The notes beneath the pieces were generated by a model. That model saw only the letters and a program-made list of their open reading frames with translations. It searched no databases and was not told the origin of the DNA. Shown here piece by piece: positions 2,003-15,367 of a stretch of DNA of 64,000 bases (position 1 is its first letter; each line of letters begins with the position of its first letter). Source of the DNA: Hericium rajendrae (lineage: Eukaryota > Basidiomycota > Agaricomycetes > Russulales > Hericiaceae). The position numbers and the translations under genes are program-made. The stretch spans positions 1,984,001-2,048,000 of the forward strand of contig CM065881.1 of the NCBI GenBank assembly GCA_033439255.1. The letters run 5' to 3'.

Positions 2003-2732
2003 GCATAACTATAGTAGATCTGCCTTTATTTAATACTGTCGCATTCGATTCTTAGTTTCTGTTGCAATGACTCTATTCATGTATCAATCACATAAACTTA
2101 ACATATCAATGTAGTTTCCAACACTACAGGATCTAGCTTCTTGGAATGAATTATATAGTGCTCTGATAATGATTGATTGGGCAATGAGCAGCAAAAGTAT
2201 GATCATCAATTCTGTCATCTATGTCCACACCAACACATCATCAACATACTCATTACTACTAAAAGTAACAAGAATGATCAGTCTGAGACATTGGTCACAC
2301 ATCCTTTGTTTGTATCCTGCTTGCTTGTAAGTGCATAACAAATAGTCAAAATATTTGTACATACTCTTTGACATCCATTTGAGCTAGAAATTTGATAGAT
2401 TTGACAGAAACTCATTAGTCATTCATCTATTAATAAAACTTTTTTCAACACATATAATAGAAGAAGCTACTAAAGATAATGTTGAAATGTGCAAAATATA
2501 GTACAGCTGACTTTATATACTTAGAATTTAGTTTTTATCCTAAGAATTGAAAGATATCTATTTGAATAAATGGTAATTGTGAAGTTTGCTATGATAAAAT
2601 TAAAGCTGATCCAATAAATACTGGTCCAAAAGCATAATTCAAAATTAAATGTTAGAGATAGTAATTTGACATTGAATTATCATTGAATACATAGCAAAAA
2701 GCTACCAGTTCAGAACTGAGTCTATTAACCAT
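2003..2732. other. AT-rich, CpG-free non-coding tract
   Basis: About 730 bp between the stop of the transcription factor (+) and the last recognisable MMS22 codon (-). The last CpG on the left is at 2046-2047, and none occurs again until 3038. Stops are frequent in all frames and I find no open coding. I searched the minus strand for the usual C-terminal motifs of MMS22 and saw none. No transposon features (terminal repeats, transposase or polymerase motifs) were visible. It is the left part of the island described under findings. Confidence 0.8.
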
Positions 2733-3037
2733 GTGATTCACCTAAAGCTGTAGATAACTCTGGATCATCTAAATCAAACTCAAACCCTTCATAATAATCC
2801 TGACTCTCATGTGAAGTCTTTTGCATATGTTGAGCAGCATTCAAAAGGCTGAGACAGTTACTAAGATAGACTTTCACAAGAGTGACATCAATATTCATAA
2901 TGTTTGAGAGACAATCTGTTGAAATCACTGTAACCCATCAAGTTTCAATAAGATGCAACTGCTTACTGCAATATATCACTTACTGCCAACTGAGCTTCTA
3001 GGATAAGCCACCTGCATAATCTCATTCATCTCAGCTT
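2048..3037. other. CpG-free AT-rich island A
   Basis: Not one CpG in 990 bp, flanked on both sides by sequence with normal CpG frequency. It covers the tract after the transcription factor stop and the last exon and intron of MMS22. No repeats or mobile-element features were seen. Confidence 0.9.
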
Positions 3038-6000
3038 CGAGGATGTGGTTAAACGAGCTAAAAAGAAATTGCAGGCATTTCATAGCAAGTCTATCATGGG
3101 CAAATGCATCTTGCTTCACGACATTTTGATATCCATCAAGAATGGATTGGGCTACATGTGTTGACCAGGCAAGGATGTAATCGAGAGGTAGACCAAAATA
3201 CTGCAGTTGCAATGTGAATTGTCGGAGAGCATCAACGGAAATTGAGTGAACAAGGGGGTTTGCTTCTCGAAAGTTGACGTAGTGTTGAGCAAGTGCTAAA
3301 CATCTTTGAACAGCGGGACCTGAGTGACTAATTTGAATAGCAACAGCAATAGCACTGAAGCGGTTGTACACCATTGATAGCTCCTTATGACTAGGAGACA
3401 AAGAGTTGTCGAAAACGACGGAGCCAACAGGGACCACAAGAGAAAGCAGCTTCTTTGTTTGACCTGTGCAATCTATATCAGATGAAGACTGCAACTCCTC
3501 GGCAGCCTCCATGACAAGTCCAAGGAAGATGGCGAACGTTTGCTCTTCCTCAATGCTCTTCGTAACAAGGCGACCGCTATTTTGAAGAATGAAGGATGGG
3601 AATCCGGCTTCTTCATCATAGAGACTTGAGTACCTCCTGCTTCTGAAGATCTCGCTCAAATGGTTGATGAGGACCGAAATCTTGACGAGGCTCCAGCGGC
3701 ACCGCCGACGCAATACAAGACACCTCCTGACAACCAATTGAATGTATTTGTCCCGCTTTCTGGATGTGCTGTCATCACGGATACGCGCAGTCAAGTCAAC
3801 CTGCATCACAGCATGTGCGACGATGCTCCAAGATGGCGGAACATGTGAGTTTGACGTTTGGATACCGTGCACCGAAAAGCGAGACAGGGCAATAACGGTA
3901 AAAATTATATGCCAGATTTCCTCGCCTGCTTCTGCGGCTCCTCTGAATGCCAGCCTTGAAGACCTCTTTATAGGAAGGGCCTGAATGATAAGGTGCCAGA
4001 TTGACTCCACATGAATATCGCCAGGCCTGCTGCACGCCCATAGTAGATGGATCAGACAGATCCAGACATGTGCAGCAGAACCACCAGTAGAAAATGCTCC
4101 CAATGGCGGGCCTACGCGTAAAAGAGATGCAAGCGTGTCCTCGACTTTCAACTCCAACAAACGCTGTGTAAGCATCAGTGAGTGACCCAGAACGATGCTG
4201 AATCTGCCAGCGTTGTCGGGTGAAGATCGACCGTAGTATAGGCGAACCGATATCTCTAGACAAAACCAGTAGACGTGAAGAATCCGAGCGTCTGGGAAAA
4301 TGCCGTGAGACATTGAAGCATCCACTAGCAGATCGGCCTGCGCCTTCAATAAATCAATGCAACCTAGAGCAGATATTCGCAGTTCTTCAAACTCTGGACC
4401 AGCCAGCTTCACGGATAGCCACGATAATGTTTGGCATATGATATGCAAAGTCGTGGTGATAGTCGACATTTCGGAAGCCAGGGTCAATGTGGTGATCTGA
4501 CGACGCATGATTGCATTTGCGGACTGCAAAAAGGTAGAAAACTCTTCGAAGGTGGGCTTGAAAGGAAGAAGACATCCCTCCAGCTCGTATTCGGGAGCAC
4601 ATGGCGGCGGCCTACGGCCTGATATGATTTCGATCAGCTCGTGGAGCCATCCTTTACGCAGATAAGAGTCGGAAGCGAATTCGAATGTTGTGGGGACATC
4701 AGGTGGATGAATAGCCAGAGAAGCCAAGAAAACATCCGGAACGCCGCCCCAATTTTTAGTAGGAAATAGATGACCGTCACCAGAACTATCCCTAGGTGGT
4801 ATCTGTTGTAATCGCTGCATATGATGATCTTGTCTTCTATGCGATGCCTCCGAATCCGTTGAAGAGATAGAGATATTGTCTTCTATATCAATTGTCTCTG
4901 CTTGCCGTCGATGCAGTCTACGAATGATATATTTCCCCCGGGACGGAAATATGGATACACCGGACGGAAGTCTATCGCCGATACGGATTGAACGGCGACG
5001 ATCTAGGTAGTCCGTTAGTAGGTTCAATAGACGTGTCCATTTTAAATACGCACCACGAGTTTTCGGCCTGGAGAAACTCTTAAGTTTGCTGGAGGATTTA
5101 GATGCACCGGTGCGATTGCGCGGACGCTTCGTATTTAGTTTACACTTCAAGATGTTTCCGCGTGCGCCCAAACATCGCTTGGTACGAGGTCTAGCATTAT
5201 GTCTTTGATCTTCAGTGATCAACACGGAATTCGTTATCTCGTTTGTCTTTCCATACGGCCGCGAAACAAGCTTGTCCACCTCATGATTGGAATCGATACT
5301 GCCAAACAAATCGGTACTGTGGGCCATCTCACTGGGAGGAGAGGACGATCTGAAGGATCTGTAGAAAGTGTGCATAGTCTGAAAGAACGCGTGGCACTCA
5401 GAATAATGCTGCTATGTGTGGAAAAGGATAGCGCGCGTACATCGTGCTTGGATGAGCCAGCCTGTGAACGTTCAGACTGTGAACACTCCCCAAGCGGGTT
5501 TGATTCTTCGCCACTAGATTCCTGCTGGAAAACCTTTGGATACCACCTGATAGTATTCGCACCATTCTGAGGACTACTCTGAATGGGCGCATTGGATGTC
5601 ACATGGCGAGTCTTGGACGATTCCATGCGCCTAGATCTTCGTTGTATGGATAGAAAAGAATCTTCTTTGTTGGCAGTAGGCCCAACGATGTGCCGATGCC
5701 CTTTGGTTGAATGTTTCCTGTACGTATCCGACTGATGCTGTCTCCAACCCTCGTCGTCGGAATCTTCATTCTCCCCCGAAGATCCTTCCTGAGATGGCGA
5801 GTCCCTCATATGACGACTGTCCGTGTTCACAATGGCTTCGGGATTAGATTTCATCTGATTCTTGTAGTAAGTCTTCTCATAGGAGTAGGGATTGATCTGT
5901 TGGGCGTTGCGTATGCGAAGGGTGTAGCGGCCATCGACGGCATGCTGGCTAGAATCCGAAAGAGGTGATGCAAGTACGCTATTATCTTCCATAATGATAT

Positions 6001-13373: not shown

Positions 13374-15367
13374 ATGTCAATCAAAGACATTACGCTCGAC
13401 AATCATGAGGATATCATCGTGCAGGAACGCACCCCAGAAGCAAGCTCAACGCGTATCAGCTCGAAGCCGTCGGACTCCGAGACGGTGTAAGGTCACTCAT
13501 CCGCTTCGAAAGATCCTCATTGACCGCTGAAGAGCAGAGAAGAACTCTGTCAAATCTGCAGAGTCAGGCTTGATACGCTTACATTGTCCGAGCTACAAGG
13601 CCATTACAATGAGCACCTTGCCCAGTCGACCGTTCCTTCAGGTAACATAGCAGTCTTGTGTCGTGCACTATTGTGTTAACAGGTGCCGCGCCGCGCCGCT
13701 CTCAGGTTCTTCGCCGTCCGCATCGACTTCGTCCTTGGCGCGGACTCTACAACTGGCGAGAAGAGCAGTGTCCAGACCAGTCAAAGACGTGTTTTGGTAT
13801 CCTTTGCAAGGAGTAGACCCGCCCGACAACTACACACCCGGTACGCCATCTAAGCGTATCCTTCTGAATACTACCTCATCGTCCACGGACAGGTCTGATA
13901 CCTTTACTCAAACAAGCACTAATGGTCTCGCATACGAAAGGTGTCACACAAAGAGCTGCTCTTTGCTACGTGCGAACAGTTCACATTTCCCATGAGCCTT
14001 GGGATGCTGGCTGGGGTTGTGGGTATGTCCTAGCCATCTGTCTATTGCTGTCTATTGTCATCTAAATGACTAGGAAATAGATACAGGAACTATCTTATGG
14101 CTTGCACAGCACTCATGGACCAATCTAGTCAAGTTGGATACTTTCCTCTGCTTAATGGGCCTCCATTGCCTGGCATTCAGAGCCTACAAAATTTAATTGA
14201 GCAGGCTTGGAAAGATGGTTGTTCTCATATCTCTTCAAGATGAATATTTTCTTATGACAGTTTCAGGTTATGATAAAGAGGGTGCACAGCAACTGAAACA
14301 GAAATTAGCTGGTTATACAAAATGGATAGGAACAGCAGGTCTGCTTTATGCTACTCTTAGTAAACAACAGCCTACTCAACTTAATTTGTAAGAACTTTAT
14401 GTTGCTTATACATACCTTGGTATTCCGTGAGTTTTTCAAAGTAGTGTTTTTGATATCAAGGCTAAATTGTAGAATAGCTCACAACTTGTGGACTTTCATC
14501 TTTCAAGTGGTGGTAGGTATTTAGCCTCTTGAGATAATTTTGATACCTAATGTGCATGTATACAAGATGCTGGTCCTCTAATCAGATGGATAAGAAGATA
14601 TTTTTCTCCTCCAGAACGAGATTCATACAAATCCAAGTGTAGCTCACATGGCAGCTCACATGATTCTGCTATTGTTATCTCTGACTGCATGCCACTTGTG
14701 CTACAACACTCAGGTCATTCAAGAACAATTGTAGGCTATGAAGTTCAGAAGCAAGGAGCAGTGAATCTGCTAGCATTTGATCCCTCTAAGTACCTTGACA
14801 TATTTGTCACTCTTTTAAAATGTCTAACTAAAATGTTAGATGGATTCCCAAAGAGATCAGAAGAGCATCAATTCAGTCATTTTGGTCAACACTTCAGAAC
14901 ACTGAGACTGATATGCCTGATCATGAGGCCAAGACTGCAAAGGAGGATCATGTCAAGCACTTTATACAGCACATCAAGAAGCCATTTCAAAAGTGGAAGA
15001 CAAATCATTCTTTAGAGAAAAATACTCACAAAGAGAAGTCACTAGGAGAAAAGAAGATAGGATCTGCAGAATTAACAGTGGTTGTTAATGATCCAAGCAG
15101 AAGTGTCTTGACAGATTTGGCAAGCCAGAAGGAACCTCAATTAAATATCATGCAGAACTACACCAAAATCTTGAAGTTGGTAAGGGTTGATGAGAAGGCC
15201 CTCTTGTAAGTTTTTTTTACTTGTTTCATTAGCTGATGACTGAATTTAAAGTCTCGAAACTCAGAAAGCATGATAGATATCAGATCCTTTGGTTTCCTCT
15301 TGCCGACCCACTTAGCGAGGAGGAGAAGCAGTATAGACAAGTAGTTACTAGCAATAAGCTTTGTTAA
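13374..15367 (+). CDS. ZUFSP/ZUP1-type cysteine peptidase (family C78) with N-terminal C2H2 finger
   Basis: Members of this family (human ZUP1, fission yeast Mug105) cleave K63-linked ubiquitin chains, and other C78 peptidases cleave UFM1. The exons join in frame. Start MSIKDITLDNHED (13374), then a zinc finger with CQIC and HYNEH (13551-13620), then KDVFWYPLQGVDPPDNYTPG (about 13780) and LIPLLKQALMVSHTKGVT. Next comes the catalytic Cys box WDAGWGCG, spliced to YRNYLMACTALMDQ (14022/14081), then YDKEGAQQLKQ and KWIGTA, ELYVAYTYLGIP and SQLVDFHLSSGG, the His box LQHSGHSRTIVG (about 14700) and LLAFDPSKWIPKEIRRA. A lysine-rich insert of about 85 residues (14900-15160) follows, then VRVDEKALL and KHDRYQILWFPL, and VVTSNKLC before the TAA. 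Every key motif is present. From about 13975 the gene is AT-rich and almost free of CpG, although still open and correctly spliced by eye. The exact start and first intron (about 13487-13540) are the least certain parts. Confidence 0.87.
13975..15254. other. CpG-depleted AT-rich island B
   Basis: Two CpGs (14426-14427 and 14617-14618) in 1,280 bp, with 637 bp quite free of them at the right end. It begins within the exon carrying the catalytic Cys box of the C78 peptidase and ends within its last exon. Five or more exons inside it remain open and carry family motifs. Confidence 0.9.

Follow-up and report, generated by a model that had tools for sequence, protein, structure and literature searches.

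A nearly CpG-free island within a working-looking ZUFSP/ZUP1-type peptidase gene of Hericium rajendrae: a probable footprint of CpG methylation, deamination and purifying selection

How can the interior and 3' half of a host gene lose nearly all of its CpG dinucleotides and still read as a working peptidase? The question is raised by a locus in a 64-kb stretch of the Hericium rajendrae genome, hereafter the window, whose overall CpG observed/expected (o/e) ratio is 1.00 and in which nearly all 500-bp segments are CpG-normal. Window composition places a CpG-depleted island at 13975-15254, with only 2 CpG in 1,280 bp (o/e 0.042), a GC content of 0.386 and a TpG+CpA o/e of 1.35. A sequence-only reading had reported this count and described the edges as sharp. 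The count is exact, with the nearest outside CpGs at 13973 and 15255. CpGs at 13929, 13935, 13969 and 13973 are followed by two solitary sites at 14426 and 14617, and the series resumes at 15255, 15304 and 15316. Pooled over both sides, CpG o/e is 0.86 in the outer 100 bp and 0 in the first 300 bp within. A log-likelihood scan delimits the segment at 13977-15253 (2 CpG, GC 0.387; whole codons of residues 148-449) with a score of 53.4, both edges falling within exons; at a slightly higher background setting the segment extends to 15303. First-order Markov sequence served as the null: in 10 Mb of it, trained on window positions 16001-60000 and scanned at the higher setting, the top island scored 12.5 against 53.4 for the real one, the background settings of the two scans differing slightly.

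The flanks of the island are compositionally ordinary. The 5' part of the gene (13374-13976, plus strand) holds 44 CpG in 603 bp at a GC content of 0.517 and a CpG odds ratio of 1.09, in agreement with the ordinary CpG and GC that the earlier reading had ascribed to it. CpG is regained at the end of the last exon (15254-15366, plus strand; 3 CpG in 113 bp), and 500-bp windows on the upstream side of the gene also carry CpG. Within the island, the dinucleotide odds ratios are 0.04 for CpG, 1.35 for TpG and CpA, and 0.70 for TpA, and no other dinucleotide among the 11 computed is comparably low. The CpA to TpA bias of ascomycete-type repeat-induced point mutation (RIP) was considered and rejected; TpA, at 0.70, equals the background and is not raised over it. 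Exons and introns are both depleted, and the difference in coding CpG between the island and the outside is significant at p=1e-14. The strand distribution of TpG and CpA is inconsistent, at 71/89 in exons and 29/16 in introns. A DNA search of the genome indicates that the island is single-copy today, and neither this search nor a repeat comparison across the sampled sequence found a repeat within it.

The host gene (13374-15367, plus strand) appears to encode a ZUFSP/ZUP1-type peptidase (Peptidase_C78), and no unusual function is claimed for its product. Matches were obtained to Pfam PF07910 (Peptidase_C78; 4.9e-32) and to the ZUFSP structures PDB 6ei1 (2.3e-33) and 7oje (3.6e-31), and a family search returned one match in the 46.8-Mb assembly. 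The gene model was built by hand from conserved motifs and GT-AG sites, steered to open frames and drawn up without RNA support. It comprises 11 exons (13374-13484, 13533-13641, 13706-13840, 13893-14022, 14081-14217, 14267-14338, 14393-14426, 14478-14512, 14567-14789, 14840-15179 and 15233-15367) encoding 486 aa, with a TAA stop at 15365-15367 and ten introns of 48-64 bp, all GT-AG. The WGCGYRN, GHSRT and DP motifs are shared with ZUFSP/ZUP1 deubiquitinases, and an N-terminal CxxC...HxxxH stretch like theirs can be seen by eye, with no Pfam finger match. Unlike these enzymes, the window protein has a long C-terminal part past the Pfam match (after residue 340). Cleavage of K63-linked ubiquitin is a trait of the ZUFSP/ZUP1 (C78) class, to which the window protein is assigned by sequence. 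The exons inside the island contain Cys161 with YRN, His305 in GHSRT and Asp326 in FDPS, which we take to be the catalytic residues. The earlier reading had the island exons running through the His box, the YRN after the catalytic Cys and the C-terminal motif. The first two do lie there; the C-terminal motif (WFPLADPLSEEE...) lies mostly just past the island, in CpG-normal DNA.

The loss is specific to CpG rather than to GC at large. Among codons with a middle C, NCG accounts for 0 of 68 in the island and 17 of 47 in the 5' part, and C-before-G junctions between codons number 0 of 81 and 10 of 40, respectively; for everything outside the island the corresponding counts are 18/53 and 12/49. Third positions at which a CpG is possible are G or C in 20 of 128 cases in the island versus 41 of 87 in the 5' part (p=1e-6), whereas those at which it is impossible are so in 86/174 versus 53/95 (p=0.37). 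The drop in third-position GC is thus limited to CpG-capable sites. A donor rich in AT would have lowered both classes, so the near-normal GC of the non-CpG third positions speaks against one. Introns lying wholly in the island contain 0 CpG in 369 bp at a GC content of 0.331, and those of the 5' part (164 bp) have a GC content of 0.524, a difference larger than the loss of CpG by itself accounts for. By rough arithmetic, CpG loss alone would predict an island GC of about 0.44; the observed 0.387 is lower, and other C>T changes or AT-rich introns therefore contribute.

The two surviving CpGs occupy sites at which either transition would be costly. The one at 14426-14427 (plus strand) spans an exon end and its splice donor, where C>T changes Pro to Leu and G>A alters the GT donor; the one at 14617-14618 (plus strand) lies in an Arg CGA codon, where C>T creates a stop and G>A gives Gln. 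Both transitions are costly at 2 of 2 survivors compared to 4 of 44 CpGs in the 5' part (Fisher p=0.014), with the 13 intronic CpGs among the 44 counted as free. Blind deamination was simulated on the island residues with the codon usage of 14 long CpG-normal frames. It removed about 57 CpGs, changed about 32 of 302 residues and added 0.55 stops, with 57% of runs remaining stop-free, so that an open frame by itself is weak proof of selection. Arg makes up 3.0% of residues in the island versus 7.6% outside and Lys 8.6% versus 4.9%, Arg is by eye not visibly depleted in the aligned catalytic part relative to 6ei1 and 7oje, and the choice of Arg codons is uninformative (AGR in 8/9 inside, 10/14 outside).

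The island is not a lone case in this genome. A separate one at 2051-3035 of the window, with 0 CpG in 985 bp and a GC content of 0.322, overlaps an intergenic stretch and a minus-strand open frame (2728-2937), a candidate last exon for a gene whose 811-aa open frame occupies 2979-5411. Within this second island, at approximately 2244-2445, lies a dispersed repeat some 200 bp long, for which the genome gave 11 more partial matches. Our wider sample covered 258 kb of contig C4, chosen around the window, and about 70 kb elsewhere. Scanning the 258 kb revealed 39 CpG-depleted islands totalling 52 kb, and islands in the sampled sequence span about 0.4-3.5 kb. They are concentrated at C4 1.900-1.985 Mb, just upstream of the window, in a repeat cluster of about 80 kb that ends about 17 kb upstream of the gene's island; the islands of this cluster match one another and include pieces of Plavaka transposase. 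Only 4 of the 39, the gene's island among them, are repeated elsewhere in the sampled sequence over less than 15% of their length. On other contigs, depletion covered 0, 3.6, 52, 0 and 2.4% of five additional 10-kb samples.

Comparison of repeat copies gives a view of the changes themselves. Differences that oppose CpG to TpG or CpA amount, for example, to 40 of 80, 26 of 82 and 24 of 50 among the 45 listed of 48 pairs, and some pairs have no such concentration (e.g. 14 of 141). With the CpG-richer copy as a stand-in for the ancestor, C>T rates were 0.375 at CpG, 0.120 at CpA, 0.141 at CpC and 0.073 at CpT; the 15 overlapping alignments used had been picked because their copies differ in CpG o/e, and the rate at CpG is inflated as a result. 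The process is native to this genome: repeats, intergenic DNA and other genes all bear its mark. Two elements of the sampled sequence may be described here in their own right. A 582-bp CpG-free near-palindrome, 86% self-complementary, is found at L008:6517-7098 (C4:1966517-1967098) and L030:3537-4118; its copies are 99% identical, lie on two contigs and seem to have been recently mobile. A repeat element at L007:1005-6084 (C4:1951005-1956084) and L016:3545-4906 (C4:2101545-2102906) has 490-bp ends that are 99.8% identical and a CpG-richer interior, and about 1.36 kb at one side is depleted in both copies, with 98.6% identity between them over that part.

The codon phase of residual CpGs provides a test of selection beyond the gene. 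CpGs in phase 1-2 are those of Arg CGN codons, in which no transition at the CpG is silent; deamination under protein-level selection is therefore predicted to leave an excess of them. Taking the longest open frame per overlap and a minimum length of 200 aa, 110 frames were obtained, 11 with a CpG o/e below 0.6, 93 with at least 0.75 and 6 intermediate ones that were omitted. Residual CpGs were distributed over phases 1-2, 2-3 and 3-1 as 124/21/21 in the 11 poor frames versus 2217/2684/3425 in the 93 normal ones (Fisher 4e-37), among which there may be antisense frames. Two of the 11 are without the bias (1/5/4 and 10/7/7) and may be non-coding, and most of the 11 lie in the repeat cluster, where selection may act on mobile elements. 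Long frames of that cluster at L003:6037-7518, L008:95-1213 and L009:366-1055 have phase counts of 19/0/0, 8/0/0 and 10/1/0, as if their lineages had stayed under selection while losing CpG; the frames of L003 and L009 match Plavaka, and that of L008 does not. Together with the counts in the gene, these codon tests support the earlier proposal of a CpG-directed mutational process with the protein retained.

Other genes show related footprints. An NLR-like gene (C4:2150404-2153756) is depleted throughout, with 8 CpG in 3,353 bp; it has open frames of 548, 194 and 158 aa, an NPHP3_N domain above the cut-off, NACHT below it and WD40, and it belongs to a family, represented by another 48 partial DNA matches (65-90% identity). 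The genome contains 5 PF00145 cytosine methyltransferase matches at four places and 2 DNMT1-RFD matches; the latter, the NPHP3_N/WD40 gene and the Plavaka matches point to an agaricomycete. One of these loci, a DNMT1-class gene on contig C12 (C12:756215-762000) with PF00145 on two open frames, BAH below the cut-off and DNMT1-RFD upstream, is itself depleted over its catalytic-domain frames (757835-758517 and 757358-757635). Its 5' side is mostly CpG-normal, declining from 0.95 through 0.69 to 0.28 toward the island in 200-bp steps, CpG is normal downstream, and the frame between the two depleted pieces has phase counts of 7/0/1. The footprint resembles that of the peptidase gene, with a less sharp left edge and a partial gene model, and it was spotted among five methyltransferase loci examined (two of them overlapping), which are not an unbiased sample. 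Residual CpGs pooled from this frame, the NLR-like frame and the peptidase island fall in phase 1-2 in 13 of 16 cases (p=8e-6), the pieces having been picked post hoc.

From this pattern we conclude that long-lasting CpG methylation and deamination, filtered by purifying selection, probably shaped the interior and 3' half of the gene. Over long evolutionary time this part of a single-copy host gene would have been a CpG-methylated domain, in which deamination of methylated C to T on the two strands converted CpG to TpG and CpA, while purifying selection purged changes harmful to the protein or to its splicing. The methylation would be maintained by a DNMT1-class or other cytosine methyltransferase, and the domain would have to be stable across generations. 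We infer the time and the direction of change in the gene from codon logic. Candidates for the initial mark are repeat-derived heterochromatin, small RNAs and a gene-body mechanism. The island itself offers no seed for methylation, as the searches detected no repeat in it.

Among the alternatives, a rapid RIP-like premeiotic hypermutation that struck once or a few times, through a transient duplicate of the gene or leakage from a nearby repeat, is unlikely, although it has several points in its favor. The island-rich repeat cluster ends only about 17 kb upstream, repeat copies differ largely by CpG transitions, and the available text of two reports describes CpG-biased hypermutation in Rhizoctonia solani AG8 (PMC4014442) and CpG-preferring RIP in Ganoderma sinense (PMC4457147). 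Yet blind conversion of some 57 CpGs would have altered about 32 residues, and the conserved motifs are kept; the two remaining CpGs are the very sites that selection would guard; and about 11 kb of DNA that is CpG-normal in 500-bp windows separates the gene's island from the one at 2051-3035, with no gradient of leakage. Moreover, RIP would call for duplicated DNA, and the island is single-copy today, although a past duplicate is possible. The sequence-only reading had also considered introgression or transfer of the 3' half from an AT-rich genome. Such an origin, with gene conversion as a further route and a CpG-poor genome or allele as donor, would find some support in the abrupt breaks within exons and the length of about 1.3 kb, as expected of a conversion tract, but it is quite improbable: GC is near normal at non-CpG synonymous sites, which are not significantly shifted toward AT, the CpG-free signature recurs in this genome's repeats, intergenic DNA and other genes, and the genome holds no second copy of the gene. 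A pattern scan of the prokaryote collection gave no close prokaryotic relative, none of its 35 pattern matches being confirmed. Within the species, conversion by an allele that had been methylated and had decayed is possible.

A decaying pseudogene in heterochromatin would fit the nearby repeat cluster, but with a 486-aa open frame, ten GT-AG introns of 48-64 bp and Cys, His and Asp motifs that align to 6ei1, and with the 5' part and the 3' end CpG-normal, such decay is very improbable. The assembly join of haplotypes or contaminants that had been offered as a possible refutation is more improbable still; composition does break abruptly at both ends, but one reading frame with its splice structure crosses both edges and like islands occur at many places. 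Chance, or the choice of codons and amino acids, is scarcely credible. Only the low GC of the introns speaks for it, against the gap between null and observed scores, the involvement of introns and exons alike, and the significance of the coding CpG deficit.

The favored reading, methylation and deamination under selection, has clear parallels. The loss of CpG with gain of TpG and CpA is shared with methylated animal and plant DNA, where 5-methylcytosine deaminates; unlike there, the loss is restricted to islands of about 0.4-3.5 kb, outside which the window is CpG-normal. The C>T changes at CpG are likewise common to the RIP-like mutation of basidiomycetes, which affects repeats and, in AG8, genes as well, as described in the accessible parts of these studies (PMC4014442, PMC4457147), and the repeats of several fungi have been noted to carry C>T signatures at CpG (PMC4352252, available text). 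The available account of AG8 describes CpG-biased hypermutation in genes and repeats, with heterozygous SNPs spread over genes (PMC4014442), whereas here a single-copy gene carries one near-total, bounded stretch with survivors at costly sites. The kind of mutation is therefore already known; what varies here is that the erasure is near-total and bounded and lies in a working-looking single-copy gene.

As in the gene-body CpG methylation of plants and animals, the interior is hit, the 5' region and the very 3' end are spared, and exons and introns are both affected; unlike there, the footprint is read as mutation and concerns few genes in the sample. In fungi, the accessible text of two reviews (PMC13297926 and PMC7862722) describes gene-body methylation as mostly lacking, the latter excepting Uncinocarpus reesii and Metarhizium robertsii, and portrays basidiomycete CpG methylation mainly as a repeat mark. 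Methylated genes are nonetheless on record, as far as the available portions of the reports go: in Puccinia striiformis, a basidiomycete, lower-expressed alleles have gene-body CpG methylation (PMC12129025); Coprinopsis cinerea has genes with high levels of 5mCG (PMC8889193); in Pleurotus, methylation is stronger where genic regions carry small-RNA clusters (PMC5974365); and 74 transcription-factor genes are methylated in Ganoderma sinense, which also has CpG-preferring RIP (PMC4457147). For Agaricomycetes host genes the evidence in these texts consists of methylation calls, mostly linked to low expression or repeats, and the portions available note no bounded erasure inside a gene; nor did the available text of the open-access literature describe any host gene of a basidiomycete with a bounded CpG-free stretch in it.

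It is possible, though rather doubtful, that the island records true gene-body CpG methylation, present now or long past at a subset of working host genes, with interior domains, each about 1.2 kb long, that leave the promoter side and the extreme end untouched and last until almost all removable CpGs are gone, the proteins remaining functional throughout. Methylation seeded by repeats or siRNA is at least as likely. Given the genic small-RNA clusters of Pleurotus and the 29 matches to RNA-dependent RNA polymerase on several contigs of the present genome, small RNAs are at least as good a candidate for the seed, if not a better one.

Taken together, a near-complete footprint of CpG loss and an open frame in a single-copy gene would mean that working exons bore a mutagenic mark over a very long period. 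The codon phase of surviving CpGs offers a simple test for long-term methylation combined with selection, requiring only the sequence and applicable to any fungal genome. If the gene-body reading were true, a heritable gene-body mark would be readable from sequence in a kingdom thought to be mostly without it.
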